Positions 532 through 30,010 of a stretch of 53,050 nucleotides of DNA are shown piece by piece. Under the pieces are notes generated by a model that saw only the letters and a list, made by a program, of their open reading frames with translations, was not told where the DNA came from and did no database searches. The translations under genes were made by a program, and so were the position numbers. How positions within the stretch are numbered: position 1 is the first letter of the stretch; the number at the start of each line of letters is the position of its first letter. Source of the DNA: an uncultured Caulobacteraceae bacterium (GTDB lineage Bacteria; Pseudomonadota; Alphaproteobacteria; Caulobacterales; Caulobacteraceae). The stretch lies in NCBI GenBank assembly GCA_903923135.1, contig CAIXWN010000062.1:1-53050 (forward strand). Reading direction: 5' to 3'.

Positions 532-561
532 GGCGGGCTCCGATGTATGAGAAATTCTAAT

Positions 562-579
562 CTTATCGATGAAGATAAG
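562..579. promoter_or_regulatory. Inverted repeat in the divergent lysR / ABC promoter region
   Basis: CTTATC-GATGAA-GATAAG is a perfect 6-bp inverted repeat in an unusually AT-rich patch between the divergent regulator (start 531) and permease (start 667). Its position fits a LysR binding site, although its even symmetry is not the textbook T-N11-A. About 15 bases further, GGGC-ATAAGA-GCCC followed by TTTT (594-611) could form a short hairpin, too weak to call a terminator. Confidence 0.45.
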
Positions 580-666
580 TGTATTGAAACAACGGGCATA
601 AGAGCCCTTTTGGGTCCTGGCAATCGCAATCGCAACACGCACCGAATTCAGGTGAAAGGGCCTATA

Positions 667-1476: not shown

Positions 1477-1491
1477 TCCCGGAGACCCGCC

Positions 1492-3473: not shown

Positions 3474-3477
3474 CCCG

Positions 3478-4062
3478 GTGCGCCGCGATAATCTGGCGCG
3501 CCTGCGCCGCTTCGTCGGCGGTCTGGCGTTGCTTCTCGACTCCCATCCGGACGAGCCGGAAATTCTCCGGCGCGGCGGCGATCTTCTGGCCGAGCTGGTC
3601 TCTGTGGACGACTGGCTGCCGGAACCCTTCGATCAGCCGGTCGGCCGCTACGCCCAGTATCTGCTCCACTGCGACTCTCTCGAACGGTTCAGCGTCGTCA
3701 GTTTCGTCTGGTCGCCGGGCCAGGGAACGCCGATCCACAATCATACGGTGTGGGGCCTGATCGGCATGTTGCGCGGCGCGGAGATCGCTCAGGCCTATGA
3801 GGCGGGCCCCGGCGGCCTTCTGCCGGGCGACAGCACGCGCCTGACCCCGGGCCAAGTGGTGGCGGTGTCCCCGCGCGTCGGCGATGTCCACAGCGTCACC
3901 AACGCACTCGCCGACCGATCCTCGATCAGCATCCACGTCTATGGCGGCAATATCGGCGGCGTGCAGCGGTCCGTCTTCGACCTCGATGGTCGCCAACGCC
4001 CCTTCATGTCCGGCTATTCCAATACCGTGACGCCCAATCTCTGGAATGGTATCCTCGAATGA
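3478..4062 (+). CDS. Gln-type thiol dioxygenase (3-mercaptopropionate/cysteine dioxygenase family)
   Basis: Cupin non-heme iron enzyme, 194 aa, that adds O2 to a thiol to give a sulfinate. The iron ligands are H87 and H89 (TPIHNHTVWG) and H138 (GDVHSVTN). The outer-sphere Ser-His-Tyr triad is S151-x-H153-x-Y155. At the position where animal cysteine dioxygenase has substrate-binding Arg60 (YTRNL), this protein has Gln60 (YAQYL). That Gln type is associated in the family with 3-mercaptopropionate dioxygenases, so this substrate is more likely than L-cysteine. The GTG start lies 4 bases after the previous stop; its own stop overlaps the next gene by ATGA. Confidence 0.85.
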   Translation: MRRDNLARLRRFVGGLALLLDSHPDEPEILRRGGDLLAELVSVDDWLPEPFDQPVGRYAQYLLHCDSLERFSVVSFVWSPGQGTPIHNHTVWGLIGMLRGAEIAQAYEAGPGGLLPGDSTRLTPGQVVAVSPRVGDVHSVTNALADRSSISIHVYGGNIGGVQRSVFDLDGRQRPFMSGYSNTVTPNLWNGILE

Positions 4063-5639
4063 GCATGGCCCGTCCCATCGCCCCGGCCGATGTCCGCCGC
4101 GATCTGCTCACCCGTCGGGAGATCGCCCTCCTCGACGTGCGTGAAGAGGACCCGTTCGCCCGGTCGCATCCCCTGTTCGCCGCCAACCTGCCGCTCAGCC
4201 GCCTGGAGCTTGAGGCCTGGGAGCGTCTGCCGCGCCGGGACGTCCGCATCGTCCTCTACGACAACGGCGAGGGTCTGGTCGACCGCGCGGCCCGGCGACT
4301 CGCGGCCCTCGGTTACAGCGACGTGAGCGCCCTGACCGGCGGTCTGGCCGGTTGGGCGGCGGCCGGGTTCGAGTTGTTCCAGGACGTCAATTCGGCCAGC
4401 AAGGCCTTCGGTGAACTCGTCGAGGCGCGTCGCCACACCCCGTCCCTGCCCGCGCCGGAAGCCAGGGCGCTGATCGACGGGCCGGCGCCGACGGTTGTCC
4501 TGGACGCCCGCCGCTTCGACGAATATCGCACCATGAGCATCCCCACCGGCGTCAGCGTGCCGGGGGCCGAACTTGTCCTGCGCGCCCGCGATCTGGCGCC
4601 GGACCCGGCCACGACCATCATCGTCAACTGCGCCGGACGGACCCGCAGCCTGATCGGCGCGCAGTCGCTGATCAACGCCGGCGTTCCCAACCCGGTGGTC
4701 GCCCTGCGCAACGGCTCGATCGGCTGGACGCTGGCGGGCCAGACGCTCGATCACGGCCAGACGCGCCGCTATGGCGAGCCCTCACCCGAGGCGGAGGCCG
4801 AAGCCCGCCGCGCCGCCCGGGAAGTCGCCTACCGGGCTGGCGTGCGCCGCCTCGATCAGGCGGATCTGGCCGCGCTGGTGGCCGACGCCCATCGCACGCT
4901 CTACCGCTTCGACCCCCGCCAGCCCGAGGAGTTCGAGGCCGGGCATCTGCCGGGTTTCCGCAACGCTCCTGGCGGGCAACTGGTCCAGGAAACCGATCAC
5001 GTCGCCCCGGTGCGCGGCGCCCGCATTGTCCTGGCCGATCCGCGGGGCGTACGCGCCGACATGACCGCCTCCTGGCTCGCCCAGATGGGCTGGGAGGTCT
5101 ATGTCCTGGAGGCGGCCGAGGCGGCGTTCTCCGCCCACGGACCGGCCCCGCGGCGCACGCCCGAGCCCCCCGCGGCCCAGGTGATCACCGCGCAGGCTCT
5201 CGCAGCCCGACTCGACGCCGACGACCTGACGGTCATCGACCTGGGGGCGGGGCCTGTCCATCGCCGGGGCCACATTCCGGGCGCCTGGTTCGCCATCCGC
5301 GCCCGTCTGTCGGAGGATCTGGCGGATGTTCCGCAGGATCGCACCGTGGCGCTGACCTCGCCCGATGGCCTGCTGGCCCGGTTCGCGGCCCCGGAGGTCG
5401 CCGCGATCACGGGTCAGGCGGTGCGGGTGCTCGAGGGGGGCACCGCCGCCTGGATCGCCGCCGGGCTGCCCCTGGAGACCGGCCTGATCCGCGCCGCCAG
5501 CGCGCCCGATGATGTCTACAAACGTCCCTATGAGGGAACAGACAACGCCGCCACCGCGATGCAGGCCTATCTCGACTGGGAATATGGCCTGGTCGACCAG
5601 TTGGCCCGCGATGGAACGCATGGTTTCTTCGTGATCTGA
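4059..5639 (+). CDS. Multi-domain rhodanese-like sulfurtransferase
   Basis: 526-aa protein made of four rhodanese-like units (about 5-105, 130-240, 263-365, 375-480). Only unit 2 has a catalytic cysteine, Cys191 in VNCAGRTRSLIGA; units 1, 3 and 4 carry YDNGEG, ADPRGV and TSPDGL at the active-loop position, so they are probably structural. Rhodaneses move sulfane sulfur between thiols. It overlaps the thiol dioxygenase by 4 bases (ATGA), implying coupled synthesis; pairing of thiol dioxygenases with rhodaneses is known in proteobacteria. Its substrate is not readable, but the operon points to organic sulfur breakdown. Confidence 0.85.
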   Translation: MSMARPIAPADVRRDLLTRREIALLDVREEDPFARSHPLFAANLPLSRLELEAWERLPRRDVRIVLYDNGEGLVDRAARRLAALGYSDVSALTGGLAGWAAAGFELFQDVNSASKAFGELVEARRHTPSLPAPEARALIDGPAPTVVLDARRFDEYRTMSIPTGVSVPGAELVLRARDLAPDPATTIIVNCAGRTRSLIGAQSLINAGVPNPVVALRNGSIGWTLAGQTLDHGQTRRYGEPSPEAEAEARRAAREVAYRAGVRRLDQADLAALVADAHRTLYRFDPRQPEEFEAGHLPGFRNAPGGQLVQETDHVAPVRGARIVLADPRGVRADMTASWLAQMGWEVYVLEAAEAAFSAHGPAPRRTPEPPAAQVITAQALAARLDADDLTVIDLGAGPVHRRGHIPGAWFAIRARLSEDLADVPQDRTVALTSPDGLLARFAAPEVAAITGQAVRVLEGGTAAWIAAGLPLETGLIRAASAPDDVYKRPYEGTDNAATAMQAYLDWEYGLVDQLARDGTHGFFVI

Positions 5640-5691
5640 GACGTCTTCGCGGCGCGGGCTTGAGCCTCGCCTATCAACGCCTTCAGAAGAA

Positions 5692-5704
5692 CTCACTTAG
5701 TGAG
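5692..5704. promoter_or_regulatory. Palindrome upstream of the ssuD-like gene
   Basis: CTCAC-TTA-GTGAG is a perfect 5-bp inverted repeat with a 3-base centre. It lies in the 125-base gap before the SsuD-like gene, the only sizeable gap inside this plus-strand cluster. It could be an operator for an internal promoter. No matching copy was noticed elsewhere in the window. Confidence 0.35.
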
Positions 5705-5764
5705 CCGCCCTGCGAAGCGTATCCGTTCCAGCCTCATTTCGTTCCCTGTTGCGAGATCTGCCCC

Positions 5765-6859
5765 ATGCCCGTCGAATTCATCGGCTTCATCGGCACCAAC
5801 CCCGCGTCGGAAATCCATCCACACACGGGGCCGGTCATAGACCGGGCCTATGTGGAGACCATCGCCCGCGCCCACGACGCCGGCGGTTTCGACCGGGCCC
5901 TCATCGCCTTCCATTCGACCTCGCCGGAAAGCATCCTGGTAGCCAACCACGCCGCCTCGGTCACTGACCGCCTCGGTCTGATGATCGCCCACAGGCCGGG
6001 CTTCACCGCCCCGACGCTTGCGGCCCGGCAGTTCGCCACGCTCGATCAGTTCACCGGCGGCCGCATCGCCGTGCACATCATCACCGGTGGCTCCGACCAG
6101 GAGTTGAGGCAGGACGGCGACCATCTGACCAAGGATGAGCGCTACGCGCGCACCGACGAATATCTCGACATCGTCCGGCTGGAGTGGAGTAGCGACAAGC
6201 CCTTTGACTACAAGGGAAAATACTACGACGTGCAGAACGCGTTCGGGGCCGTGAAGCCGTTCAACGGCTCTCATCTGCCGGTCTACTTCGGCGGCTCCTC
6301 CGACGCGGCCATTCCCGTCGCCGGAAAGCACGCCGATATCTACGCCCTGTGGGGCGAGACCCAGGCCCAGGTGAACGAGACCATCTCGCGCGTCCGCGCC
6401 GCCGCCGCCAAATGGGGACGTAGCCCGCGCTTCAGCCTCTCCCTGCGGCCGGTGCTGGCCGACACGGAGGAGGGCGCCTGGCAGCGCGCCAGGGAGATCG
6501 AGGACCGCACCCGCGCCCTGCGCGAGAAGGCCGGCCTGAAGACCACCGGCCACACGCCGCCGAACGCCGGCTCCCAGCGCCTGCTCGCCGCCGCCGCCCA
6601 GGGTTCACGCCTGGACAAGCGGTTGTGGGCCGGCGTCGCCGCCATCACCGGGGCCCAGGGCAACTCCACGGGTCTGGTGGGCACGCCCGAACAGGTGGCC
6701 GACGCCATGCTCGACTACTACGATCTGGGGGTGTCGACCTTCCTGATCCGCGGTTTCGATCCGCTGGATGACGCCATCGCCTACGGCCGCGACCTTATCC
6801 CCCTGGTCCGTGACCTCATCGCAGCGCGAGACGCCAATCCGGTCCGCGCCGCCAGTTGA
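5765..6859 (+). CDS. ssuD: LLM-class flavin-dependent alkanesulfonate monooxygenase, SsuD-like
   Basis: 364-aa TIM-barrel FMNH2-dependent monooxygenase, close to SsuD (about 380 aa), which desulfonates alkanesulfonates to aldehyde and sulfite. Family features include MPVEFIGFIGTNPASEIHP at the N-terminus, HIITGGSDQELRQDGD, then RYARTDEYLDIVR and the phosphate-binding PVYFGGSSDAA. I used the ATG at 5765: it gives the family N-terminus, and the upstream open frame lacks similarity. It follows the transporter and thiol-dioxygenase genes in the same direction after 125 bases. No NADPH:FMN reductase (SsuE) is adjacent, so reduced flavin must come from elsewhere. LLM enzymes for sulfones or related compounds remain possible. 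Confidence 0.85.
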   Translation: MPVEFIGFIGTNPASEIHPHTGPVIDRAYVETIARAHDAGGFDRALIAFHSTSPESILVANHAASVTDRLGLMIAHRPGFTAPTLAARQFATLDQFTGGRIAVHIITGGSDQELRQDGDHLTKDERYARTDEYLDIVRLEWSSDKPFDYKGKYYDVQNAFGAVKPFNGSHLPVYFGGSSDAAIPVAGKHADIYALWGETQAQVNETISRVRAAAAKWGRSPRFSLSLRPVLADTEEGAWQRAREIEDRTRALREKAGLKTTGHTPPNAGSQRLLAAAAQGSRLDKRLWAGVAAITGAQGNSTGLVGTPEQVADAMLDYYDLGVSTFLIRGFDPLDDAIAYGRDLIPLVRDLIAARDANPVRAAS

Positions 6860-6868: not shown

Positions 6869-8272
6869 TCAGGACGGGATCAGCGCCTTGCGCAGATAGG
6901 GATTGAGGAACCGTCCGCCTGGATCCAGTTGCGCGCGCACGGCCATGGCCTCCGCCCAGCGAGGGTAGAGGCCGCGGAAGTCGGATTCGCCGAGGGTGTT
7001 GAGCTTGCCCCAGTGCGGGCGCCCGCCGTATCGCCGGAAGATAGGCTCGATCAGGTCGAAGAGGAACTGGTGGTCGTCCTTGTAGTAGGCGTGGACCGCG
7101 ACCGACCCGGAGGAGCGCTGAAAAAAGGGCGACAGCCAGGCGTCATCGGCCTCGATGGTGCGCACCTCGATCGGGAAGAAGACGTCGCTGCGCCGCGCCT
7201 CGATGGTCGAAACGACGGTTTTCAGAACCTCGATCTGGGTCTCCTGCGGCAGATGGAACTCCATCTCGTTGAACTTGATCGGCCGGTCGTTGGACAGCAG
7301 CTTCCATCCGTCGTCCACCATGTCCTGGGGCGGAATATCGGCGATGAGTCGCTCGGCGACCCAGCGGCGAAGCGGAGCCGACCATCCGAAAACGTCCCTC
7401 AGGCTCTTCAACTCCATGGTCGCCGACGCATCGGTGTCCGGCCCTCGCGGCTTTAGCGGCAGGTTGGTGACGTCGGCGGTGATGACCGCGGCCTTTCCGG
7501 TGAAGGGGATGGCGTAGAACTCGACATTCCGATGCACGGCCTTGAGCCTCGGCCAGTCGTCGCAGGTGTCGTGGAAGTCGCGGATCTCGACCCGCTTGTG
7601 GATCCGGGTCAGGGGCCGGTTTTTCAGGGTCACCTCGGTGACGACGCCGAAGGCGCCCAGATTGACCCGCGCGGCGTTGAAGATGTCGGCGTTCCTCTCC
7701 GGATCGCAGTCGAGGATCTCGCCGGCCGCCGTCGCCAGGCGGAACGACAGCACCTCGCCATGGATGGCCTTCAGGCCTCGTCCGGTGCCGTGGGTGCCGG
7801 TGCCCAGGGCCCCGCCCAGGGACTGCTTGTTGATGTCGGGCAGGTTGGGCATCTCCTGGCCGATCGCCGCCAGGGCGGGACCCAGATCGCCCAGGCGCGT
7901 GCCCGCCCGCACCCGGGCGGTCAGCGTCGCCGGGTCGTGGTCGATGACGCCGCTCATCCTGTCCAGGCTGAGAAGCGTGCCGTCGGTCGTGGCCAGGGGC
8001 ATGAAGCTGTGGCCGGCGCCAACCGGGCGGATCGGCCCCTGGGCCGTCTTGAGCAGGCTGGCCAGTTCGTCCTCGCCCGCCGGCGCCGCGCGGGCCGCCG
8101 GATAGGCCGACTGGATGCCCGACCAGTTGCGCCAGAGCAGCCGACCCTTGGGGTCGGTCTCCGGGGGTGAGGCCGGTTCCTGGTCGCTCCAGAGTCGATA
8201 CCCGACAGCCCCGGCCACGCCGACTCCGGCCGTCGCGGCGCTCGTCGCCATCACCGTCCGTCTGGTCACCAT
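6869..8272 (-). CDS. FAD-linked oxidase of the D-arabinono-1,4-lactone oxidase family
   Basis: 467-aa flavoprotein with an N-terminal PCMH-type FAD domain (PVGAGHSFMPLATTDGTLLSLD; GTGTHGTGRGL) and a C-terminal ALO domain ending with HWGKLNT. Family members oxidise aldonolactones or other sugar alcohols. The N-terminus carries a twin-arginine-like signal (MVTRRTVMATSAATAGVGVAGAVG), so the folded flavoprotein is probably exported. GGAGG lies 8 bases before the ATG. It is the last gene of the long minus-strand run and follows a lipoprotein cytochrome c by 27 bases, suggesting that electrons pass to that cytochrome. The substrate is unknown. Confidence 0.85.
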   Translation of the reverse strand: MVTRRTVMATSAATAGVGVAGAVGYRLWSDQEPASPPETDPKGRLLWRNWSGIQSAYPAARAAPAGEDELASLLKTAQGPIRPVGAGHSFMPLATTDGTLLSLDRMSGVIDHDPATLTARVRAGTRLGDLGPALAAIGQEMPNLPDINKQSLGGALGTGTHGTGRGLKAIHGEVLSFRLATAAGEILDCDPERNADIFNAARVNLGAFGVVTEVTLKNRPLTRIHKRVEIRDFHDTCDDWPRLKAVHRNVEFYAIPFTGKAAVITADVTNLPLKPRGPDTDASATMELKSLRDVFGWSAPLRRWVAERLIADIPPQDMVDDGWKLLSNDRPIKFNEMEFHLPQETQIEVLKTVVSTIEARRSDVFFPIEVRTIEADDAWLSPFFQRSSGSVAVHAYYKDDHQFLFDLIEPIFRRYGGRPHWGKLNTLGESDFRGLYPRWAEAMAVRAQLDPGGRFLNPYLRKALIPS

Positions 8273-8299
8273 GGCCGGTCCTCCAAGGGTCGCTGTCGA

Positions 8300-8674
8300 T
8301 CAGGAAACCGGCTGGTCAGCCATGAAGTGGATCAAGGCCCGGTAGTCATCCGTCGTGCAGGAGAAGCATTGCCCCCCCGACGGCATGCCCTTGTAGCCGG
8401 TCACCACGCTCTTCATCAGGGCGGCCATGCCCTTGCGCGCGCGGGGCGCCCAGGTCTCCCGGTCGCCGGCCTGAGGCGCTCCGGTTCCCGGCGCGGCGTG
8501 ACAGGACTTGCAGGCGTGGACGTAGAGGTCGGCCAGCTTCGCGTCGGCCGGGGTCATGGCGGCCGCCCGGGCCGCGATCTGGGCCGGAGACGGCTGCGGA
8601 TTCCGGCCCTGGCACGCCCCCAGGACGAGCGCCAGAGCCAATCCCAGCAGGATCCCTGTGCAGTCTCTGATCAC
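8300..8674 (-). CDS. Lipoprotein c5-type cytochrome
   Basis: 124-aa monoheme cytochrome. A lipoprotein signal ends in LVLGAC (Cys21). Heme attachment is CKSCH at 55-59, the probable axial methionine is Met97 in GYKGMPSGG, and the pair C103/C106 (CFSC) is the extra cysteine motif of cytochrome c5. The likely role is a periplasmic, membrane-tethered electron carrier. The GTG start at 8674 overlaps the stop of the upstream permease (GTGA), so translation is coupled. The flavoprotein gene follows directly and is a plausible redox partner. Confidence 0.85.
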   Translation of the reverse strand: MIRDCTGILLGLALALVLGACQGRNPQPSPAQIAARAAAMTPADAKLADLYVHACKSCHAAPGTGAPQAGDRETWAPRARKGMAALMKSVVTGYKGMPSGGQCFSCTTDDYRALIHFMADQPVS

Positions 8675-10068
8675 CGATCCGTCTCCATCGCCACAGCCGC
8701 GGCCTCGTCCGTGGCGCTGAACCGCGCGCTCGCCGCCAGATAGACAGCCGACGCCACCGCCAGGGAGACCAGCCAGCCCACGTCCACACCCCCCAGCCTC
8801 GCCGCCAGGGGGGCGGTGTAGACGCCCGGCGCCGTGAAGAACGGCAGGCTGGCGAGGAATCCGGCGGCGTAGGCGATCAGGCCCCGCGCGCCCCACGCCC
8901 CATAAACCCCTTTGGGCGTGAACAGGTCGGGAAGGGAATAGCGGCCCCGCCGCAGGAAGAAGTAGTCGATAAGATTGACCGCGCTCCACGGGGCCAGGCC
9001 ATAGAGCAGGATGACCAGAAGGGCGTTGACCCGGTTCACCGCATCCCCGCCGAGCCAGATCGCCGACGCGGTCCAGGCCGCGGCGAGGGCCGCGATCATC
9101 GCCGTCTTCAGTCCCCGCCCTGGCAGGATCGGCCGAATCGAATCGGCCATGGTGAAGGCGGTGAGCATGGCGCTGTAGCCGCTCATGGCGATGGTGGCCA
9201 TCAATCCGCCGATCGAGGCCGCCGCCAGCAGGGAGCCCAGGCCGACCGTCACGGCGTCGCCCGCCAGCCGCAGGGCCACCAGCCCGTCGGTTGCGCCCAT
9301 GCGGGTGGCGAGCCATGCGCCGAGGGCGATCAGCCAGACCGCCGACAGGCCCGAGCCGCCGAACACACTGAGGATGACCGCGCCGCGCCGGGTGCGGCTG
9401 GGCAGATAGCGGGTATAGTCGGAGACATAGGGCGCGGCGGTGATGTTGAAGCTTGCCGCCGAGGCGACCTGGGTGGCGAAGGCCGGCCAGTTGAAACCTC
9501 CCGCCGGCGGCGCGGCCGCTCCGCCGGCGTGACCCAGAACGATCGCCCCGCTCAGCACCACGAACAACGGCAGGCTGATCCAGAACATCACCCGGAACAT
9601 CCGGTGGACCTGATCGTGCCCCCAGATGGCCACGGCCGCGGTGACGAGCGACACGCCGATGGCGGTCACACCGCGGTCGAGTCCCCACAGACCGTGGACG
9701 CCTTCGGCGATCAGGATCACGGCGACGACGTTGTAGCCGACCAGACAGACCATGGTGGCGATCAGCGGCACGATCACGCCCCGATAGCCGAACTGGGCGC
9801 GCGACTGGATCATCTGCGGCAGGCCCAGTTGTGGCCCCTGGGCGGCGTGGAAGGCCTGGAAGGTGGTGCCGATGAGGATCCCGACCGCCCCGGCCAGGGC
9901 TGTATAGCCAAGCGACAGGCCCAGGCTCGGCCCGACAAAGCCGATGGCGATGACGAAGAAATGGAAGTTGCTCAGGAACCAGAACTGGCCCTGGTGGGCC
10001 AGCCGCCCGTGGCGTTCGCCCTCGGGGACGAAATCGATTGACCGGGTCTCGATGCCCAGCGCCGTCAT
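8671..10068 (-). CDS. NCS1-family permease (purine/cytosine permease type)
   Basis: 465-aa integral membrane transporter with about 12 hydrophobic helices. NCS1 hallmarks are present: the N-terminal FWFLSNFHFFVIAIGFVGPS region, YVSDYTRYLP after helix 6 and NLIDYFFLRRGRYSLPDLF after the intracellular loop. NCS1 proteins symport nucleobases, hydantoins, allantoin or thiamine precursors. Nothing here identifies the substrate, and the operon contains no nucleobase enzymes, so another heterocycle is possible. It lies 18 bases after the DUF1254 gene and overlaps the cytochrome gene. Confidence 0.88.
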   Translation of the reverse strand: MTALGIETRSIDFVPEGERHGRLAHQGQFWFLSNFHFFVIAIGFVGPSLGLSLGYTALAGAVGILIGTTFQAFHAAQGPQLGLPQMIQSRAQFGYRGVIVPLIATMVCLVGYNVVAVILIAEGVHGLWGLDRGVTAIGVSLVTAAVAIWGHDQVHRMFRVMFWISLPLFVVLSGAIVLGHAGGAAAPPAGGFNWPAFATQVASAASFNITAAPYVSDYTRYLPSRTRRGAVILSVFGGSGLSAVWLIALGAWLATRMGATDGLVALRLAGDAVTVGLGSLLAAASIGGLMATIAMSGYSAMLTAFTMADSIRPILPGRGLKTAMIAALAAAWTASAIWLGGDAVNRVNALLVILLYGLAPWSAVNLIDYFFLRRGRYSLPDLFTPKGVYGAWGARGLIAYAAGFLASLPFFTAPGVYTAPLAARLGGVDVGWLVSLAVASAVYLAASARFSATDEAAAVAMETDR

Positions 10069-10086
10069 GCCCGTTCGCCCACGCGC

Positions 10087-11337
10087 TCAGGCCCGCGTCA
10101 CAGCCGGCAGGCGATAGGCGCCGTCCAGCAGTTCCCGCCGGGGCAGGTAGGCGCGGAGGAAGAGGGCGAAGGGCCCTTGCGGCGCCGGCAGCCAGTTGCC
10201 GCGCCGCTCCGGACCCGGGTCCGCGTGGCCGATCCAGATGTCCAGAGAGCCGTCCGCATTGGCCTGCAGGCCGGGTGTCCGGTCACCGATGGCGTAACGG
10301 TCCAGGGGATTGTCGGCGAAGAAGAACTGGCCGTCGTCGGTCGCCTCGTAGAGGCTGAGCGACCAGAAGGCGTCCACCGGGATCCGCCCGTCGGCGGCGA
10401 AATGCAGCCGCCAGTCGGTCGCGCCGTCGAACAGCGCCCGGGGCAAATCGCCCTTTGCGCGCATGTACATGGCCTCCGCCGGCGGCAGGGCGCCCAGGCC
10501 GCCCAGGGCCACGCCGGCGCGGTAGAGATAGTCCTCGCCGAAATCGCCGAGCCGGGCGGCGGGGTAGCTCCAGCCGTCGGCGAACCCCGTCGCCTCCAGG
10601 CCGCCGCCCCGCAGAAGTCCTCGGGCCTCTGCCACACCCGCTTCGATGGCCTCCACCTGGGACGGCGATAAACGGGCCGGGTCGAAAGCCGTCAGTCCCA
10701 GCGGCGCCATGGTCTGCAGGGCCGCGCGATCGGTCAGCGGCGGCGGATTGTCGGCCATCAGCCGGGCCACGCTGGCGAAATAGTCGGCCCACGAAGAGCC
10801 GCGCGTCGCGGTGGCGGGGTAGGGGGCGGCCGCCGGGCCCTGCATCGACACGCCGGTCTGCACCGCCCGCGCCGCCGCCAGGTCATGCGGTCCGTCCACC
10901 AGGATCCGCCCCAGCGCCCAGACGTGCCGCGTGGGCGACCGTACGACGTGAGGACCGTCGGCCGCCTCGCAGGGGCCCACCAGGGTGAAGGTCAGGCCGT
11001 CCTGCCCGGTCGTTCTCGTGCCCAGGATCGCGAAGTTGTTGGTGTAGGCGTCCATCAGGGCCAATGAGACATAGCGCTCGCCGGAGGGCGGTAGGGTGAT
11101 GGTCACCGGGCCGCCCGCCAGATCCACCTGGGCCGAGGCGTAGAGGGTGTCGTTGTTGGGCGTGGTCACCGCCCGGGCCCTGTGATCGGCCAGGTTGGGC
11201 GGATGCACGAAGCTGTTCATCGGGGCGCCGACGCCGGTCAGGCGCCTGCGGGTCGTGGCGATCTCGATGAGCGGCAGACCGAACAGCCACGCCGTGCGGG
11301 CCGCCGCCGTCAGCCTTTCCAGTGCGCTTCCGGGCAT
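10087..11337 (-). CDS. DUF1254/DUF1214 domain protein
   Basis: 416-aa protein with the DUF1254 signature (TTPNNDTLYASAQVDLAGGPV; DAYTNNFAILGTRTTGQ) in the first third and DUF1214 (FWSLSLYEATDDGQFF, NPLDRYAIGDRTPG) in the last. No signal peptide is obvious, although many relatives are exported. The biochemical function of the family is not established. GGGAG lies a few bases before the ATG. It sits between the alkylsulfatase and the NCS1 permease in the long minus-strand run. Confidence 0.85.
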   Translation of the reverse strand: MPGSALERLTAAARTAWLFGLPLIEIATTRRRLTGVGAPMNSFVHPPNLADHRARAVTTPNNDTLYASAQVDLAGGPVTITLPPSGERYVSLALMDAYTNNFAILGTRTTGQDGLTFTLVGPCEAADGPHVVRSPTRHVWALGRILVDGPHDLAAARAVQTGVSMQGPAAAPYPATATRGSSWADYFASVARLMADNPPPLTDRAALQTMAPLGLTAFDPARLSPSQVEAIEAGVAEARGLLRGGGLEATGFADGWSYPAARLGDFGEDYLYRAGVALGGLGALPPAEAMYMRAKGDLPRALFDGATDWRLHFAADGRIPVDAFWSLSLYEATDDGQFFFADNPLDRYAIGDRTPGLQANADGSLDIWIGHADPGPERRGNWLPAPQGPFALFLRAYLPRRELLDGAYRLPAVTRA

Positions 11338-11361
11338 GGTCGCTCCCCGCCTCAGGCCGTC

Positions 11362-13305
11362 TTAGCGAGTCACGATCGGAAAGTCCGCGTGGAAGGTGTC
11401 GAGCCAACTCACCAGGCGGTCCACCGCGCCGGCGTCGCCGTCCGCCTTCACAGTCCCTGCGGCGACCGCCGCCTTCACAGACGCGCCGGTGAACAGGGCC
11501 TGGATGAAGGCCGAGCGCGGGAGTGTGAGGCTGGCGTCGACCGGGCCGGGCGCGGCGATCGGTTCGGCGATCAGGACGTCGTTGCGCACACGGACATAGA
11601 ACCGTTCGCCCCGCTCCGGGAAGGAGAGGGCGAGGCCGAGCGTGGCGCCCTTCACCTTGTCCGGGTTCAGCCGGACCCCCACCAGTTCGAACAGCATGCG
11701 GCTTGGCATGTTGCGGATCAGGTCCAGCGCCGCCGTCCCGGGGCCGCTGCGCACCACCCCGCGAAGTTCCATGGCGGCGGTGAGATACTCGTTTCGGAAC
11801 AGCGAGTTCTCCGAACGATAGGCGAGCTGGTCGTAGACCCCGGCCAGGGCCTCCCGGGCGGCGGTGTTTGTGGAGTCGGCCAGCACGACCCGGTTGAGCA
11901 GGGTGGCCGCCCAGGCGTCGTCGCCCTTGCCGGCGGCGGTCCGGGCCAGGGCGATGACGCGCGCCGCGCCGCCCATGGCCTCCACATAGCGCGCGCTCTC
12001 CTGCGCCGGCTCCAGCGGGGCCAGATTGACCGGGTTGGCGTCATACCAGCCCATATACCGTTGATAGACAGCCCGGGCGTTGAAGCTCATCGAGCCGTAG
12101 AAGCCCCGGTTGTACCAGTCCTTCGCCAGGGTGGCGGGCAGGGCGATGCGGTCGCCGATCTCCGGCCCGGTGAGGCCCTCGTTCATCATTCGCACCGACT
12201 GGTCGTGCAAATATTCATAGGCGTCGCGGTGATCCTCGAGAAACGCCACCGCCGCCGCATGGCCGAAGCGGGGCCAGCCATGGCTGGTGAACATGACGTC
12301 GGTCCGGTCGCCGAACAGGCGGATGGACTCTGTCAGATCGTCCGCCCAGGCCTTGGCGTCGCGCACCAGGGCGCCGCGGGGGGTCAGCACATTGTGCATC
12401 GAGACGTTGGCGTTCTCGGCCATGCACAGCGCGCGCAGATCGGGGAGAAAGATGTTCATCTCCGCCGGCGCCTCGGCGCCGGGCGTCATCTGGAACTCCA
12501 GCTTCACCCCGTCCACCATTATCGTCTCGCCCGTGTGGTCGATCGTCACCGTCGGGGGAATCAGGCTGAGGCTGCCTTTGGAGACCGCCTGGCCGATGCC
12601 GCTGGTCACCTGGCCGTCGGGGCCCGGCGGCAGGAAGAAGCCGAACTGGTAGACGGCGCGGCGGCTCATCGCCACGCCCGCCAGGACGTTCTCGCTGACG
12701 GCCTCCTCCAGGAAGCCTTTCGGGGCGATCACCTTCACCTTGCCGGAGTCCACGTCGGCCTGGCTCACCAGGCCGCGGGCGCCGCCGAAGTGGTCGGAGT
12801 GGCTGTGGGTGTAGAGGATCGCCACCACGGGCCGGGCGCCCAGGGTCTCGTTCACCAGATCCAGGGCCGCGCGGACCGTCTCGGTGCTGGTCAGGGTGTC
12901 GATGACGATCCAGCCGCTGTCGCCCTGGATGAAGGTGGCGTTGGCGATGTCGAAGCCGCGCACCTGCCAGATGCGGTCGGCGACCTTGAACAGACCATGT
13001 TTCGACAGCAGCTGCGCCTGTCGCCAAAGCCCCGCATTCACCGTCGGCGGGGCGTCGCCAGCCAGAAAGTCATAGGCTGACAGGTCCCAGGCGACGCCGC
13101 CGCCGGCCCGCAGAATTCTGGGGTCCGTCCGGGTGGCGACAAACCCGCGGCTGGCGAAGTCGAAGTCCTGGCGGTCGGCGAGGGGCAGGGTCTTCCGGGC
13201 CTGCGCCTGGGCCGCCAGGGTTGTCGCCGAGGGCGGATCTCCCGCCAGCGCCGGGGTCGCGGAGGCCAGCGCCAGAATCCAGGCCCGGGTGCGCCAGGAC
13301 CTCAT
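11362..13305 (-). CDS. Alkylsulfatase, SdsA1-type metallo-beta-lactamase hydrolase
   Basis: 647-aa class III (metallo-beta-lactamase-fold) alkylsulfatase that cleaves primary alkyl sulfates such as SDS to alcohol and sulfate. An N-terminal signal (MRSWRTRAWILALASATPALAG) implies periplasmic or secreted action. The dinuclear-zinc motif T-H167-S-H169-S-D171-H172 is intact. The second acidic region (MTPGAEAPAEMNIFLPD) with AENANVSMHNVL matches SdsA1/BDS1 enzymes. The C-terminal 130 residues have the SCP2-like domain typical of the family. GGAGA lies upstream of the ATG. It is preceded in the operon by a formylglycine-generating enzyme, which this zinc enzyme does not itself need. Confidence 0.92.
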   Translation of the reverse strand: MRSWRTRAWILALASATPALAGDPPSATTLAAQAQARKTLPLADRQDFDFASRGFVATRTDPRILRAGGGVAWDLSAYDFLAGDAPPTVNAGLWRQAQLLSKHGLFKVADRIWQVRGFDIANATFIQGDSGWIVIDTLTSTETVRAALDLVNETLGARPVVAILYTHSHSDHFGGARGLVSQADVDSGKVKVIAPKGFLEEAVSENVLAGVAMSRRAVYQFGFFLPPGPDGQVTSGIGQAVSKGSLSLIPPTVTIDHTGETIMVDGVKLEFQMTPGAEAPAEMNIFLPDLRALCMAENANVSMHNVLTPRGALVRDAKAWADDLTESIRLFGDRTDVMFTSHGWPRFGHAAAVAFLEDHRDAYEYLHDQSVRMMNEGLTGPEIGDRIALPATLAKDWYNRGFYGSMSFNARAVYQRYMGWYDANPVNLAPLEPAQESARYVEAMGGAARVIALARTAAGKGDDAWAATLLNRVVLADSTNTAAREALAGVYDQLAYRSENSLFRNEYLTAAMELRGVVRSGPGTAALDLIRNMPSRMLFELVGVRLNPDKVKGATLGLALSFPERGERFYVRVRNDVLIAEPIAAPGPVDASLTLPRSAFIQALFTGASVKAAVAAGTVKADGDAGAVDRLVSWLDTFHADFPIVTR

Positions 13306-13356
13306 CGATTTCTCCCCGTATTGCTTTTCAGGCGCCTTAGCCCCGTCACGCGCCGC

Positions 13357-13689
13357 TCACAATGCCGCGTTCAGAGGTCCCGACCGGTAGGCTTCGATTC
13401 GGTCGGCCGCGCCACGCCACGCGCCCAGACCCAGGGTGGCGAAGATCAGCGCCGCCAGCAGCGCCGGCGCCCACCCCCGCAAGACCCTCGCACCAGCGCC
13501 CATCGACAGGGCCACGAGCAGCAGGCCCGGAGCAATCAGCCAGTGGCGGGCGAACCCGTCGAGGGCCCCCTCGCCGCCGAACAGCACCCAGTCTCCCAGC
13601 ATCCAGCCGGTCGGGTAGGCCGCGGCGACCCCCAGAGCCAGGGCCAGGGCGCCGATCGTCCGGCGACGCTGCGGCGGGTCAGCCGGCAT
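13357..13689 (-). CDS. Small membrane protein of unknown function
   Basis: 110-aa protein with three hydrophobic segments (about 11-35, 48-65, 70-92) and a basic N-terminus (MPADPPQRRR). I do not recognise the family. The ATG at 13689 overlaps the stop of the FGE-like gene by 11 bases, so it is probably translated together with it and could be a membrane partner of that enzyme or of the alkylsulfatase downstream. Confidence 0.6.
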   Translation of the reverse strand: MPADPPQRRRTIGALALALGVAAAYPTGWMLGDWVLFGGEGALDGFARHWLIAPGLLLVALSMGAGARVLRGWAPALLAALIFATLGLGAWRGAADRIEAYRSGPLNAAL

Positions 13690-14749
13690 GGCGGATGACG
13701 CCGTCCGGCCCCGCGCGCAGCACGGTGCGAAAGCCAATGTGGTTCTCGCCGGTGTCGGTCGGTCCCGCCTCGCGCGCCGCGGGGCGATAGCGGAAACAAT
13801 AATCCGGCGAGCAGAGGAACGATCCGCCCTTGATCACATGCCGTCTCGGCCCCGGATCCCCCGGCGCCGCGGCAGGATCCGGGCCACGGGGATTGTCGCG
13901 GTCGTCCAGGTCGAGGTTGGAGCGATACCCGTCCTTCGTCCACTGCCAGACGTCACCGGCCATGTCGTAGAGGCCAAAACCGTTGGCCGGGAAGCAGCCC
14001 ACCGGGGAGGCCTGGGCCCTGTAGCCGTCGTCGGCAGTGTCCAGGCTGGGAAAGACGCCCTGCCAGACATTGGCCTGGGGATGTTTCGGATCGAAGCCGT
14101 CGTCGCCCCAGACGAAGCGTGTCGGTCCGCGTCCGCCCTGGGCCGCATATTCCCACTCCGCCTCCGTGGGCAGGTCGCGACCCAGCCACCGCGCGTAGGC
14201 CATGGCGTCGGCCCAGGCGACCTGCACCACGGGCAGGGCGTCCTGTCCCGCGATGGAGCTGCCGGGCCCCGCCGGGTGTCGCCAGTCCGCGCCGGCGACC
14301 ACCCGCCACCACTGGCCAGGGTCCGGTCCGGCCGGCCGGTCAGCGCCGACGAAGACGATGGCCGAGGGCTTCAGCTGCTCGCCCTTCAGGCCCGGATAGG
14401 CCCTCGGATCCAGGGGGCGCTCGGCCAGGGTGACATAGCCCGTGGCCTTCACGAAGCGGGCGAAGTCGGCGTTGGTCACGTCCGTGCGGTCGATCCAGAA
14501 GCCGTTGACCCGCGTCGGCCTTGGAGGCCCTTCTTCGGCGCGCATTGGCCGTGCGCCCATCTGGAAGAGACCGCCTCTGAGCCAGACCATGCCGGCGGTG
14601 GAGCCGCCGGGTTCGGGCGCCGCGCGGTCCTTCAGGCAGATCGACGGGGCGGCCGGGGCGGCCGTCCGTTCCGTCTCGCGCCCGCCGGGTCGCCCGCAGG
14701 CGGCGATGGCGAACAGGGCGAGTGCGGCGAACAGGCGAGGAAGCGGCAT
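13679..14749 (-). CDS. Formylglycine-generating enzyme (SUMF1 family), predicted lipoprotein
   Basis: 356-aa FGE-sulfatase domain protein. True FGEs oxidise the cysteine of the C-x-P-S-R motif in type I sulfatases to formylglycine. Both copper-binding catalytic cysteines are present, Cys313 and Cys318 in KGGSFLCSPDYCFRYRPAAR; most non-catalytic relatives lack them. GGLFQMG, TEAEWEYAA and NGFGLYDMAGDVWQW are family landmarks. The N-terminus looks like a lipoprotein signal (AIAAC, Cys18), placing the enzyme outside the cytoplasm, unlike actinobacterial FGEs. The matching substrate may be the sulfatase at 28293-29972. GGGAG precedes the ATG, and a small membrane-protein gene overlaps the 3' end. 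Confidence 0.88.
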   Translation of the reverse strand: MPLPRLFAALALFAIAACGRPGGRETERTAAPAAPSICLKDRAAPEPGGSTAGMVWLRGGLFQMGARPMRAEEGPPRPTRVNGFWIDRTDVTNADFARFVKATGYVTLAERPLDPRAYPGLKGEQLKPSAIVFVGADRPAGPDPGQWWRVVAGADWRHPAGPGSSIAGQDALPVVQVAWADAMAYARWLGRDLPTEAEWEYAAQGGRGPTRFVWGDDGFDPKHPQANVWQGVFPSLDTADDGYRAQASPVGCFPANGFGLYDMAGDVWQWTKDGYRSNLDLDDRDNPRGPDPAAAPGDPGPRRHVIKGGSFLCSPDYCFRYRPAAREAGPTDTGENHIGFRTVLRAGPDGVIRHAG

Positions 14750-14758
14750 GGCTCCCGC

Positions 14759-15196
14759 CTATACGCCCCGGCGCGGTCGCAACGACAGGACCAGGAAGAC
14801 GATCGACAGAGGGACGGCGACGAGGCTGGCGAAGTGTTCGGGCGGGTGGCGTCCGCCGCCGGGCGGCAGGAGCACCCAGCCGTCCAGAGCCATCAGTCCA
14901 CGCTCCAGGATCATCAGCAGCAGGAAGAAGGGGACCAGCGGCCGATAGCGCCAGGCGACCATGGCCATGGCCGCGCCATAGGCCAGCTGGGTCGCCCCCT
15001 CCCAGGCGAAAACGCCGCGAACCAGCTCGGCCCGGTCACCCATGTCCAGATGGGCGATCACCCCCGCTCCGCCATCGGGCAGGAAACTGTGGATCAGCCC
15101 CGGCAGGATCGTCAGGACGCTGACCAGTCCGAGAAACGCCACGGCGGCGTTCGAACCCCTGTAGTGAGCATTGGTCGAGGGCGGGATCAGGCTCAT
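14759..15196 (-). CDS. Small integral membrane protein of unknown function
   Basis: 145-aa protein with about four hydrophobic helices (VAFLGLVSVLTILPGLIHSF near the N-terminus, then three more). No family is recognised with confidence; it resembles short DoxX/DUF4345-like membrane proteins only in general shape. The ATG at 15196 lies 10 bases after the upstream stop, and the next gene (FGE-like) begins 9 bases downstream, so it is an operon member. Confidence 0.6.
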   Translation of the reverse strand: MSLIPPSTNAHYRGSNAAVAFLGLVSVLTILPGLIHSFLPDGGAGVIAHLDMGDRAELVRGVFAWEGATQLAYGAAMAMVAWRYRPLVPFFLLLMILERGLMALDGWVLLPPGGGRHPPEHFASLVAVPLSIVFLVLSLRPRRGV

Positions 15197-15206
15197 GGCG
15201 GCGGCG

Positions 15207-16205
15207 TCAGCCCGCAAGGCGCGAGAGAAAGATCGCGGCGATCCGTGCGCCGTGGGTCTCCTGCAGGAAATGGCGGGCGTCCGGCAGCAGATCGAACGTC
15301 GCCTGGGGATAGAGCGAGGCCCATTGTCGCCCCCAGGCCTCGGTGAACACCGCATCCGCTCCGCCCCAGATGAAGTGGACGGGTTTGGCCCAGGCCTTCA
15401 GCGTCTCGAAATTCCGGGCCTGATCCTCCGCCGCGCCGGCCAGCGGGTCATGGAACGGCAGGCTCAGCGGAAAGCGTCTGGGGCCGGCCAGGCCGGGGCT
15501 TCCCAGTCCCGCGAAGGGCGCGTCATAGCCGCGACGAACGCCGTCAGCGTCTTCCGACACCTCGGGATAGCGGCCTTCGTTGATGATGGCGAACAGATCC
15601 TTCGGCTGGATGTAGCCGTTCGACAGCAGCATGAACCAGCCGACGGAGAGTTTGTCGGGAATGCTGGCCTCGAAAAGACCGCCGGCCTGCCACTGCTGGT
15701 TCCACTGGCGTAGCGCCGGCGTGTAGTCGTAGCCGTCGTGATGCAGCCAGGTGTTCATGATCACCAGCCGCGCGAAACGATCCGGATTCTCCGCCGCCTG
15801 CGCCAGGCCGATCGGCCCGCCCCAGTCCTGACAGAACAGGGTGACCCCGCTCAGGTCCAGATGGTCGATCAGGGCCCGGTGCGCGGCCGTATGGCGGGCG
15901 ATGGAATACCAGGCCGGGTCGGCAGGTTTGTCCGATCGCCCGAAGCCCAGGTGATCGGCGGCGATGCAGCGCCAACCGGCCGAGGTCAGGCCCGAGACGA
16001 TATGGCGGTTCAGGAAACTCCAGGTCGGCATGCCATGCATCAGCAGGGCGACGGGGCCATCGCGGGGTCCCTCGTCGATGTAGTGCAGGCGCAGGCCCTC
16101 GACGGTCAGATAGCGGGGGGCGAAGGTGAAGCCCCGCAGATCCTCGAAGGCTGTCTCGGCCGTCCGCAGGAAGGTGACGCCGTCGCGGGTGGTCTGAAGG
16201 CTCAT
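15207..16205 (-). CDS. Haloalkane-dehalogenase-like alpha/beta hydrolase
   Basis: 332-aa alpha/beta hydrolase related to haloalkane dehalogenases. Catalytic residues are visible: nucleophile Asp127 with halide-type Trp128 (CQDWGG), general acid Asp284 (WGGAD) and His312 (ARHFLQE). The oxyanion-hole motif is HGMPTW instead of HGEPTW or HGNPTS: Met59 replaces the Glu/Asn that helps bind halide. Dehalogenase activity is therefore uncertain, and an epoxide or other ester-type hydrolase is possible. It is the third gene of the operon and resembles the first (16635-17555), suggesting an old duplication with divergence. Confidence 0.75.
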   Translation of the reverse strand: MSLQTTRDGVTFLRTAETAFEDLRGFTFAPRYLTVEGLRLHYIDEGPRDGPVALLMHGMPTWSFLNRHIVSGLTSAGWRCIAADHLGFGRSDKPADPAWYSIARHTAAHRALIDHLDLSGVTLFCQDWGGPIGLAQAAENPDRFARLVIMNTWLHHDGYDYTPALRQWNQQWQAGGLFEASIPDKLSVGWFMLLSNGYIQPKDLFAIINEGRYPEVSEDADGVRRGYDAPFAGLGSPGLAGPRRFPLSLPFHDPLAGAAEDQARNFETLKAWAKPVHFIWGGADAVFTEAWGRQWASLYPQATFDLLPDARHFLQETHGARIAAIFLSRLAG

Positions 16206-16227
16206 GGCGGGACTGTCCGAGCGGGGA

Positions 16228-16638
16228 TCAGTCCCGCGGCTTGGTGCGGATGTTCAGCTGCCCGGCGAGCCCGGCGGTGCGATGGTGCTCGATGGCGTGC
16301 ATTTCGGGCGAGCCCGCCATCTTCCGGAAGGCCTCCAGCGAAGGATACTCCGCCAGGGCGACCATGTCCCAGAGTTCGTCGACCTCGCCCAGCAGGATGC
16401 CCGTGACCGCGCCGGTGAAGCGGATCCTGCCGCCCAGGGCGACCACCAGCTTGGAGACCTCGGCGCCGTAGCGCTCATAGGCCTCGCGCCCCGTGATGTG
16501 GGCGTCCGAGCCGTCGGCGTATTCGGCTTTTTCCTTGAATTTCAGAAGGTTGACCATGACGAACGGGCCATCCTCGGGTGAGCCGAAGAAGGAGACGATC
16601 TGGTCGGACGGCGGATAGACCGCGTTGACGACGTTCAT
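16228..16638 (-). CDS. DUF1330-like protein
   Basis: 136-aa ferredoxin-like (dimeric alpha-beta barrel) protein with the DUF1330 pattern: [16 protein letters not shown], then [22 protein letters not shown] and [19 protein letters not shown] near the C-terminus. The molecular function of the family is unsettled. Its start overlaps the stop of the dehalogenase by ATGA, so the two are translationally coupled, which suggests a shared pathway. Confidence 0.8.
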
Positions 16639-17555
16639 GACGGGCTCTCCGTTAAGGGATTGGCTTGGATGAAGCGGTCGAGCAGGTCGACGATCGCGTC
16701 GGGGCAGTCCTCCTGCAGGAAGTGACCGCCGGGCAGGGTCACGTGCGCCTGACCCTTCGTTCCGGGGACGCGGGCCTGGAAGATGGCGAAGCCGCCCCGG
16801 GTGATCGGATCAGCGTCGCTGAAGGCCGTCAGGAAGGGCTTGTCGAAGGTCTCCAGAACCGTCCAGGCGGCCAGGTTCTCCGCCACCGACGCGTGCTCCG
16901 GGGTCACCGGCACCAGGGTCGGGAACTGGCGGGCGCCCTCCTTGAAGGTCTCTTCGGGGAACGGCGCGTCATAGGCCGCCTTCTCGCCTTCGCTCAGTTC
17001 ACGCGCGCAGCCCATGTTGACGATGCCGCTGGTCATGAACACCGGGATGGTCTGGCTGAGCTTCAGCCATGCCTCGAATCCTTCGGAAAGTCCCGTTCCG
17101 GTCGGAAGGCCGGTGTTGGCCACGACGACGCGGGCGAAGCGATCCGGAAGGGCCGCCACCAGACGCAGGCCGATCAGCCCGCCCCAGTCCTGGCAGAACA
17201 GGGTGACCCCGGTGAGGTCCAGGCCGGCGAGCCATTGGCTCATCCAGTCGACGTGCCGCTCGAAAGTATAATCGCCGCGCGCCGCCGGCTTGTCCGACCG
17301 GCCGAAGCCGATGAGATCGGGGGCGAGCACCCGGTAGCCCTTCCCGGCCAGGCCCGGGATGATCCTGCGGTAGAGATAGGACCAGGAGGGCTCGCCGTGC
17401 ATCAGCAGCACCGGCTGGCCGTCGGCCGGGCCAGCCTCGGCCCAGCACAACCGGAGCGCCGTGCCGTCGGCGTCGACGACGTCGCGATAGTGTGGCGCGA
17501 ACGGCCAGTCGGGCAGGCTTTCGAAGCGGTCGTCCGGGGTCCTCAGAACCTGCAT
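16635..17555 (-). CDS. dhmA: Haloalkane dehalogenase, subfamily HLD-I (DhmA/DhlA-like)
   Basis: 306-aa hydrolase that replaces halogen on haloalkanes by hydroxyl. The N-terminus [20 protein letters not shown] has the RTPDxRF pattern of HLD-I enzymes. [11 protein letters not shown] supplies oxyanion residue Glu55. The nucleophile is Asp123 with halide-binding Trp124 (CQDWGG); Asp247 (FSDADPIT) is the probable acid and His278 (GGHFLQED) the base. Trp163 in the cap is a candidate second halide ligand. I chose the ATG at 17555 because it has GGAGG 8 bases upstream and gives the family N-terminus. It is the first gene of the long minus-strand run and faces a divergent hydrolase gene across a palindromic site. 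Confidence 0.88.
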
Positions 17556-17655: not shown

Positions 17656-18747
17656 ATGAAGAGATTTCGGGTGGCTATGGCGGCGGCGGCGGTGGTTGTG
17701 GGTCTCGGCGTCGTCGGCTGGACCCTTCGAGGCCGGATCGCCGCGCAGGTCATGGCGCGCGTTTTCGACCAGGCCATGGCCAGCGAGCCGCTCGGCGCGC
17801 TTCCCGATGGTTTGCACGTGGGTCTTTGCGGTTCCGGCTCGCCCATGCCCGACCCGACCCGGGCGGGTCCCTGCACCGTGGTGGTGGCCGGCCGGCAGCT
17901 GTTCGTCGTCGACAGCGGCACGGGAAGCACCAAGACCCTGTCGCTGATGAATCTGCCGCCGGCGCGGGTCTCGGCGATCCTCCTCACCCACTTCCACTCC
18001 GACCACATCGCCGACCTGGGCGAGCTGATGCTGCAGCGCTGGGGCGGCGGGGCGGCGACAAGCCCCGTGCCCGTCTATGGCCCCACCGGCGTCGATCAGG
18101 TGGTGAACGGATTGAACGCCGCCTACGCCCTGGACAAGGGCTATCGGGTCGCACACCACGGCCCGAAGGTCGTGCCGCCGGGCGGCTCCGGCGGCGCGCC
18201 GCACGCCTTCGCCACCGACGCGGCCTCGCCGGACGTCGTGGTGATCGACCAGCCAGACCTCAAGGTCATCGCCTTTCCTGTCGACCACGGTCCGGTGAAG
18301 CCGGCGGTGGGCTATCTGTTCGTCTACAAGGGCCGCAGGGTGGTGGTCAGCGGCGACACGGCTCCGTCGGCAAGGCTTGAGGCGGCGGCCCGGGACGCCG
18401 ACGTTCTGGTGCACGAGGGTCTCTCGCCCGATCTTGTGGCCCTGCAGCGTCAGGCGGCCCTCGCCCATGGCCGGACCAACCTGGCGGCGATCTTCCACGA
18501 TATCCTCGACTATCACACCACCCCCGAGCAGGCCGCGGCGATCGCCGAGCGCGCGCACGTCCACTATCTGCTGTTCACCCATGTCATCCCGCCGCTGCCG
18601 ATGGCGGCGCTGGAAGGCCCGTTCCTCGGCCGCTCCCGCGAGATTTTCCACGGCCCCATCCGCGTGGGCCACGACGGCGATTTCCTCACCCTGCCCGCGG
18701 GAACCGCTGAGATCCGGCGAACGAACCGCCTCAGGGCCCTGTTCTGA
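17656..18747 (+). CDS. Exported metallo-beta-lactamase-fold hydrolase (RNase Z/AtsA-like)
   Basis: 363-aa protein with a hydrophobic N-terminus (MKRFRVAMAAAAVVVGLGVVGW), probably a signal or membrane anchor. The metal-binding motif is T-H-F-H-S-D-H at 111-117; later ligands lie in VSGDTAPS and the C-terminal FTHVIPP. The arrangement (FVVDSGTGSTKTLSLMNL then ILLTHFHSDHIADLGEL) is that of the ElaC/AtsA branch of arylsulfatase-like and phosphodiesterase-like enzymes. The substrate is unknown. It is divergent from the dehalogenase operon and may be controlled by the palindrome at 17601. The ATG at 17656 was chosen for the signal-like N-terminus. Confidence 0.82.
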   Translation: MKRFRVAMAAAAVVVGLGVVGWTLRGRIAAQVMARVFDQAMASEPLGALPDGLHVGLCGSGSPMPDPTRAGPCTVVVAGRQLFVVDSGTGSTKTLSLMNLPPARVSAILLTHFHSDHIADLGELMLQRWGGGAATSPVPVYGPTGVDQVVNGLNAAYALDKGYRVAHHGPKVVPPGGSGGAPHAFATDAASPDVVVIDQPDLKVIAFPVDHGPVKPAVGYLFVYKGRRVVVSGDTAPSARLEAAARDADVLVHEGLSPDLVALQRQAALAHGRTNLAAIFHDILDYHTTPEQAAAIAERAHVHYLLFTHVIPPLPMAALEGPFLGRSREIFHGPIRVGHDGDFLTLPAGTAEIRRTNRLRALF

Positions 18748-28134: not shown

Positions 28135-28293
28135 GACACCGGGTGTCGGCCTCCCGGGAACGCTAACGCGACGACTTCGATCCAACGGCGGGCTGGAGAA
28201 TCACCGGCACGAGCGCACTGCCGCGCGAGGTCGGGTCGCACCCGACGACATCGCCGCCGGCGGCTGGACGACGAGACACCGAGTGTCGCCCTC
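28135..28293. repeat. Two copies of a 13-bp palindrome 140 bp apart
   Basis: GACACCGGGTGTC (28135-28147, followed by GGCCTC) and GACACCGAGTGTC (28275-28287, followed by GCCCTC) lie exactly 140 bases apart in the gap between the cyclase start and the sulfatase stop. Each is itself an inverted repeat. They could be operators for the signalling operon or the ends of a small relic element; no transposase is present. Confidence 0.45.
28230..28246 (-). terminator. Hairpin downstream of the sulfatase gene
   Basis: GTCGGGT-CGC-ACCCGAC is a perfect 7-bp stem with a 3-base loop, about 47 bases beyond the sulfatase stop on the minus strand. There is no T-tract, as is common in GC-rich genomes, so the terminator call is tentative. 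Confidence 0.4.
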
Positions 28294-29972: not shown

Positions 29973-30010
29973 GGTCGCCTCCCGCCTCGTCCGCATTGCG
30001 GCCGATGATA

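Follow-up and report, generated by a model that had tools for sequence, protein, structure and literature searches.

The question raised by this locus is whether eleven closely spaced genes of different families amount to one metabolic pathway. The window, that is the whole stretch analysed, has 53,050 nucleotides and is contig C62 (CAIXWN010000062.1) of an uncultured Caulobacteraceae bacterium, whose 4.64 Mb genome lies in 279 contigs and is 98% complete. In the list of open reading frames (ORFs), genes A to K are 11 consecutive minus-strand ORFs at 6869-17555. A preliminary description had read them as one operon for the catabolism of a halogenated or sulfated alkyl compound. Our analysis tips, by a modest margin over even chances, towards a lineage-specific mosaic operon whose functional kernel would be the use of organosulfates. 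The part of A-K most worth following is gene E, which codes for a formylglycine-generating enzyme (FGE) that is predicted to be exported.

The run itself is as first described. From A to K the intergenic spacings are -4, 22, 10, 9, -11, 51, 24, 18, -7 and 27 bases, and a start of J at GTG 8674 would turn the -7 between I and J into -4. With gaps of -11 to 51 bases between its eleven genes, all in one direction, the run has the look of an operon. A convergent SsuD-like gene (5660-6859) follows downstream, and a divergent gene lies 100 bases upstream, provided that its start is ATG 17656. We infer co-transcription from the spacing only, because the promoter scan (sigma-70-type sites, 0 found against 0.8 expected) and the terminator scan (3 terminator-like sites against 3.7 expected) add nothing. 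Families were called with Pfam and NCBIfam models and their cut-offs. Those proposed for A, C, E, G, H, J and K were borne out by model or domain matches, although C as a dehalogenase stays below the cut-off of the haloalkane dehalogenase model PRK00870 (228 against 265 bits), which A passes with 457 bits. A also has the Asp/His/Asp and halide Trp motifs of HLD-I, residues whose functional roles we presume. B matches DUF1330 with 28.1 bits (cut-off 23), while D and F have no match in Pfam or NCBIfam and are both hydrophobic by eye. G is a full SdsA1-type enzyme (6e-176 to SdsA1) of the S3 alkyl sulfatases, with three alkyl-sulfatase/metallo-beta-lactamase (MBL) domains above the Pfam cut-off (MBL, dimerisation and C-terminal) and the HxHxDH zinc motif.

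Conservation of the gene order in relatives had been named beforehand as a check on a single joint pathway, and the result goes against such a pathway. The own genome and 59 relatives (numbered G; loci are numbered L) were searched with G, I, E, K, H and AslA, a type I sulfatase of the window, and stretches round selected matches were compared with the window genes by tblastn. The whole run was found in none of the relatives' compared stretches; the order breaks up even in close relatives and only sub-blocks persist. In G015 the order is DsbA-like protein, AslA, Baeyer-Villiger-type monooxygenase (BVMO), MBL2, A, B, C, D, E, G, Band_7 protein, SsuD and acyl-CoA dehydrogenase, and F, H, I, J and K were not detected in that stretch. 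G009 has MBL2, A, B and E up to a contig end and E, I, J and K on a second contig; neither block showed C, D, G or H. G014 keeps AslA, B and E together, and G010 has E, AslA, and C and D on the other strand. Gaps in assembly may account for part of what is missing, since many of the genomes are split into hundreds of contigs and several of the compared stretches are short. Among the genomes compared, A-K is a real run of mosaic origin, seen whole in this genome only. A recent arrival of H-K was considered from base composition and set aside, third-position G+C being 0.89-0.90 in G, H, I and K. Plasmid searches returned only relatives below 60% identity, and searches for pyrroloquinoline quinone and tRNA genes gave nothing bearing on the operon question.

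The last two genes, J and K, are a separately conserved pair with predicted leaders, and here the exported redox proteins of the preliminary description hold good. J immediately precedes K in each of the five relatives whose K has at least 54% identity (G009, G035, G034, G020 and G016), in four of them without any other A-I gene detected in the compared stretch. J matches Cytochrome_CBB3 in Pfam, and its CKSCH motif and lipobox were seen by eye. K has FAD_binding_4 and ALO domains, 545 bits to TIGR01679 (cut-off 292) and a leader, TRRTVM, that by eye resembles those of twin-arginine translocation (Tat). In a paper on aldonolactone enzymes (PMC11099136), Ala113 is tied to cytochrome-using dehydrogenases and Gly to oxidases, as is covalent flavin adenine dinucleotide (FAD). 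K has neither the gatekeeper alanine nor the non-covalent FAD type of a cytochrome-c-dependent lactone dehydrogenase, as P145 occupies the gatekeeper column in the PDB alignment and H88 is of the covalent type. It shares with alditol oxidase 2vfr and L-galactono-1,4-lactone dehydrogenase 8qmy the FAD and ALO domains, the covalent-FAD-type histidine and Arg/Lys in matching motifs; unlike these it has a Tat-like leader and a cytochrome c partner, and a proline at the dehydrogenase's Ala113 position. On the electron acceptor, the residue in the gatekeeper column and the constant partner J give conflicting signs, J speaking for a cytochrome. In G035 (L086:10928-12214) and G034 (L087:10494-11774) an Ala_racemase_N protein with a leader-like N-terminus directly follows J-K; it is missing after K in the window.

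Permease I occurs in five of 60 genomes, the own genome included. Its assignment to NCS1 stands in part: Transp_cyt_pur (PF02133) is above cut-off, but the NCS1 model TIGR00800 is missed (89.8 against 353 bits). Purine genes lie beside close homologues in two of the five loci compared, one stretch having guanine deaminase (618 bits, cut-off 351) and, as xanthine dehydrogenase parts, XdhC and a molybdopterin subunit, and another adenosine deaminase; a 2-oxoglutarate/Fe(II) oxygenase is present in three of the five. These purine neighbours weaken I as a carrier of a sulfate ester. A small plus-strand ORF with the look, by eye, of a PemK/MazF-type toxin lies between I and J in G009 (L079:9568-9843).

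The sulfate theme centres on E. It matches FGE-sulfatase (PF03781) with 252 bits (cut-off 23.3), is the sole match to this model in its genome, and matches FGE structures, including human SUMF1 and bacterial FGEs, at 2.5e-65 and below. The catalytic cysteine pair of SUMF1 is kept, C313 and C318 aligning with the cysteines of the structures, and E is predicted to form formylglycine at the cysteine of CxPxR motifs. In this genome the anaerobic maturase model scores 42.9 bits, against a cut-off of 349. E as activator of the adjoining G is disfavoured, G being a zinc-dependent MBL enzyme, though FGE and SdsA co-occur. E fits AslA, an S1 formylglycine sulfatase (PF00884, 179 bits; CAPSR at residue 122) that the preliminary description did not cover, rather than G. 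Threshold matches among the 59 relatives number 24 for FGE, 30 for SdsA and 15 for AslA. FGE and AslA are found together in 15 of them, FGE only in nine, AslA only in none and neither in 35 (Fisher p 3e-8); the corresponding counts for AslA and SdsA are 13, 2, 17 and 27 (p 1e-3), and for FGE and SdsA 20, 4, 10 and 25 (p 4e-5), all p values ignoring the relatedness of the genomes. In 11 of the 15 AslA-bearing genomes the FGE is at most 6 kb away. DUF1330 (B), the DsbA-like protein and MBL2 recur near FGE/AslA, the latter two at no more than 27-49% identity outside the genus. The sulfate theme may extend to G and perhaps H: G is part of the FGE/AslA cluster in G052 as well as in G015, and H has a sulfatase and an FGE-family protein lacking the cysteine pair nearby in G030, and in G037 an FGE at a distance of about 10 kb.

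Where E would act is the next point. Its N-terminus, MPLPRLFAALALFAIAACGR, contains a lipobox. By a simple pattern, lipobox and cysteine pair occur together in 14 FGEs of the relatives and the window and in an FGE from Acinetobacter higginsii (L131). Inspection by eye added L082, and the FGEs of L105 and L199 have a signal-like segment without a lipobox. In a tree of 44 hand-chosen rows, 18 leader-bearing FGEs, E included, fall on one side of a branch with support 93/88, just below the tool's strong mark. Six leaderless FGEs group with one actinobacterial row (96/90): five are from the same family, one of these from the same genus, and the sixth is from Sphingomonas sp. 8AM. That E is a predicted lipoprotein, keeps the cysteine pair and groups with exported FGEs suggests activation of sulfatases in the periplasm. 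A scan of genome contigs gave a further 80 loci, mostly of other phyla. Judged by eye, the FGEs of L115 and L154 among these, which were left out of the tree, seem exported too and have the cysteine pair, so that the trait is not confined to the relatives of E. Bacteroidota proteins of the FGE superfamily (L109-L118, L139), of which several have a lipobox, are without the catalytic cysteine pattern and make up a separate group in the tree.

The neighbouring sulfatases were surveyed at 18 loci with exported FGEs, L198 (leader unconfirmed) replacing L131, and at seven with cytosolic FGEs. At 14 of the 18 there are 23 sulfatases, all of them with CxPxR and 22 with a hydrophobic N-terminal segment of at least 1.8; no sulfatase was seen at the other four. 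CxPxR sulfatases stand at five of the seven cytosolic-FGE loci, four of these having a leader-like segment, which in two of the four has twin arginines. The numbers are too small for a test; they hint that Tat export pairs with cytosolic FGEs and Sec export with exported ones.

It should be said that several observations weigh against this picture. The leaders were judged by simple pattern rules or by eye. In the window AslA is 13.5 kb from E, and it is on another contig or far from the FGE in G009, G016, G021 and G056, although contig ends may explain the separation in G009. FGE and SdsA co-occur, and E therefore need not be tied to AslA alone. The own genome has sulfatase-family CxPxR proteins without a visible leader on contigs C227, C215 and C261 (L099, L101, L102). 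Leaderless CxPxR proteins were also found in G001 and G003, the only two cases taken from a motif scan that gave no match in 12 of 34 loci and dubious matches elsewhere; as these two genomes have no FGE match, not all such proteins depend on this kind of FGE. None of the proteins of the sulfur cluster next to the run reaches an NCBIfam equivalog cut-off.

E could instead be an ordinary cytosolic FGE with a misread N-terminus, converting its clients co-translationally in the cytosol. The cytosolic-looking CxPxR proteins of the genome are in keeping with this, and a review calls cysteine-type bacterial sulfatases typically cytosolic (PMC3920027). We regard it as unlikely in view of the lipobox or signal sequence in 16 plus two grouped FGEs, relatives of E at 41-78% identity together with one Acinetobacter protein, and of the hydrophobic N-termini of the adjoining sulfatases. 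A second alternative is that the kernel breaks down a sulfated natural product such as a terpenoid or steroid as a carbon source, with sulfate as a by-product. The window holds a BVMO near the pentalenolactone D synthase model, a cytochrome P450, a short-chain dehydrogenase/reductase and acyl-CoA dehydrogenases, and the BVMO is kept with the A-G block in G015; but the neighbour that G015 retains on the opposite side is the Ssu-like sulfur cluster, and neither a regulator nor a ring-cleavage set was found within A-K, which makes this alternative improbable to a similar degree. Import of a halogenated or sulfated alkyl compound by I, dehalogenation by A and C, desulfation by G and oxidation by K via J would use the tight spacing, the clear haloalkane dehalogenase family member A, the clear alkyl sulfatase G and the conserved J-K pair, yet it is very unlikely and was rejected because the blocks separate in relatives, the whole run recurring in none of the compared stretches, J-K standing alone in four of five and I resembling purine-type permeases.

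What survives of the catabolic reading is organosulfate hydrolysis, with the SdsA1-like G, the FGE and the linked AslA; one pathway of this composition does not survive, and a halogenated substrate is drawn from family names. In the mosaic operon that we prefer, a sulfate ester would reach the periplasm. AslA would be exported unfolded, probably via Sec, and in the periplasm the lipoprotein FGE would oxidise the CAPSR cysteine of AslA to formylglycine. Sulfate would then be released by AslA, by the zinc enzyme G and possibly by MBL2 into a sulfur pool also fed by the Ssu-like cluster; the supply would be of sulfur rather than carbon. Hydrolases A and C and nearby oxidases such as the BVMO might process the freed organic part. 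The purine-like permease I and J-K, the latter probably for exported sugar-lactone or polyol oxidation, would have been added to the run and have roles of their own.

Table 1. Features of the window discussed in the text
Feature	Coordinates	Strand	Description
A	16635..17555	-	haloalkane dehalogenase, HLD-I type; D123 and W124, W163, D249, H278 at motif positions
B	16228..16638	-	DUF1330 protein, recurrent FGE neighbour
C	15207..16205	-	second dehalogenase-like alpha/beta hydrolase; D127, H312
D	14759..15196	-	membrane-like small protein without a family; also in G015 and G010
E	13679..14749	-	formylglycine-generating enzyme, predicted lipoprotein (IAAC); C313, C318
F	13357..13689	-	membrane-like small protein without a family; no counterpart detected in G015
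G	11362..13305	-	SdsA1-type (S3) alkyl sulfatase; signal peptide, THSHSDH zinc motif
H	10087..11337	-	DUF1254 and DUF1214 protein
I	8671..10068	-	NCS1-superfamily permease; nearest homologues partly beside purine genes
J	8300..8674	-	small lipoprotein cytochrome c; CKSCH
K	6869..8272	-	predicted exported FAD-linked oxidoreductase, aldonolactone/alditol oxidase type; H88, P145, R371, K423
MBL2	17656..18747	+	divergent MBL-fold protein, candidate S4 arylsulfatase
AslA	28293..29996	-	type I sulfatase with CAPSR motif and a hydrophobic segment at the N-terminus; probable client of E
DsbA-fold protein	30044..30700	-	neighbour of AslA/FGE in several relatives
Ssu-like sulfonate/sulfur cluster	175..6859	+	permease, ATPase, SfnB/DszC-like dehydrogenase, rhodanese, SsuD-like monooxygenase

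Other genes of the window surround this core. The Ssu-like cluster, convergent to the run, codes for SsuC-, SsuB- and SsuD-like proteins and has a sub-threshold cysteine-dioxygenase match; SsuD-like and acyl-CoA dehydrogenase-type genes adjoin the block in G015 too. The best PDB match of MBL2 is an arylsulfatase (1.1e-21), followed by the lactamase PNGM-1 (1e-19), and RNase Z models are below cut-off; the AtsA type is family S4 with a likeness to RNase Z in SulfAtlas (PMC5066984). The BVMO (18856-20673; 744 bits to the pentalenolactone D synthase model, cut-off 1100) is 94% identical in G015 and conserved above its neighbours. B12-binding-domain, ABM, GAF/HD-domain and GGDEF-hemerythrin proteins lie in a row at 23629-28089 on the minus strand. 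Two acyl-CoA dehydrogenases and an M1 peptidase occupy 42637-47780; N-terminally similar proteins flank the AslA-B-E block of G014, which suggests that the block was once nearer to these genes.

We put just short of an even chance the wider idea that this lineage has moved aerobic formylglycine maturation outside the cytoplasm. A lipoprotein FGE would convert Sec-exported cysteine-type sulfatases in the periplasm, comparable to the animal endoplasmic reticulum, and would be the anchor of organosulfate loci that are being reshuffled and bring together two, perhaps three, of the four known sulfatase families. If E works outside the cytoplasm, the rule that cysteine-type sulfatases are typically cytosolic, as worded in the review (PMC3920027), fails in this lineage, and there would be a periplasmic enzyme able to place aldehyde tags on exported proteins. 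In the open-licence literature searched, mainly titles and the beginnings of abstracts, we found no description of a periplasmic FGE in bacteria or of this operon. The reading of the operon is also corrected: a tight gene run is not necessarily one pathway, and AslA, which would explain the FGE, lies 13.5 kb outside the run.

Comparison with known systems places the locus between several of them. A matches the HLD-I haloalkane dehalogenase 5esr, presumably the enzyme named DccA, over its whole length; unlike that of 5esr, the setting of A is sulfatase-related. E shares domain and catalytic cysteine pair with human SUMF1 and the bacterial FGEs of known structure, and differs from them as a predicted lipoprotein grouped with leader-bearing FGEs. 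Against the SulfAtlas families (PMC5066984), AslA fits S1, G fits S3 and MBL2 resembles S4, so that members of S1, S3 and perhaps S4 lie within about 19 kb together with an FGE. The slf operon of the Psychrobacter plasmid pP62BP1 (PMC3346939) is likewise a small organosulfate operon with a signal-peptide-bearing SdsA1-like alkyl sulfatase, and it has enzymes predicted to take the alcohol to acyl-CoA and an AraC-type regulator. No families of such an oxidation set (alcohol and aldehyde oxidation with an acyl-CoA ligase) were found in A-K by Pfam and NCBIfam. Unlike the slf operon, A-K has no regulator within the run, and it has an FGE, dehalogenase-like hydrolases, a permease and a cytochrome.

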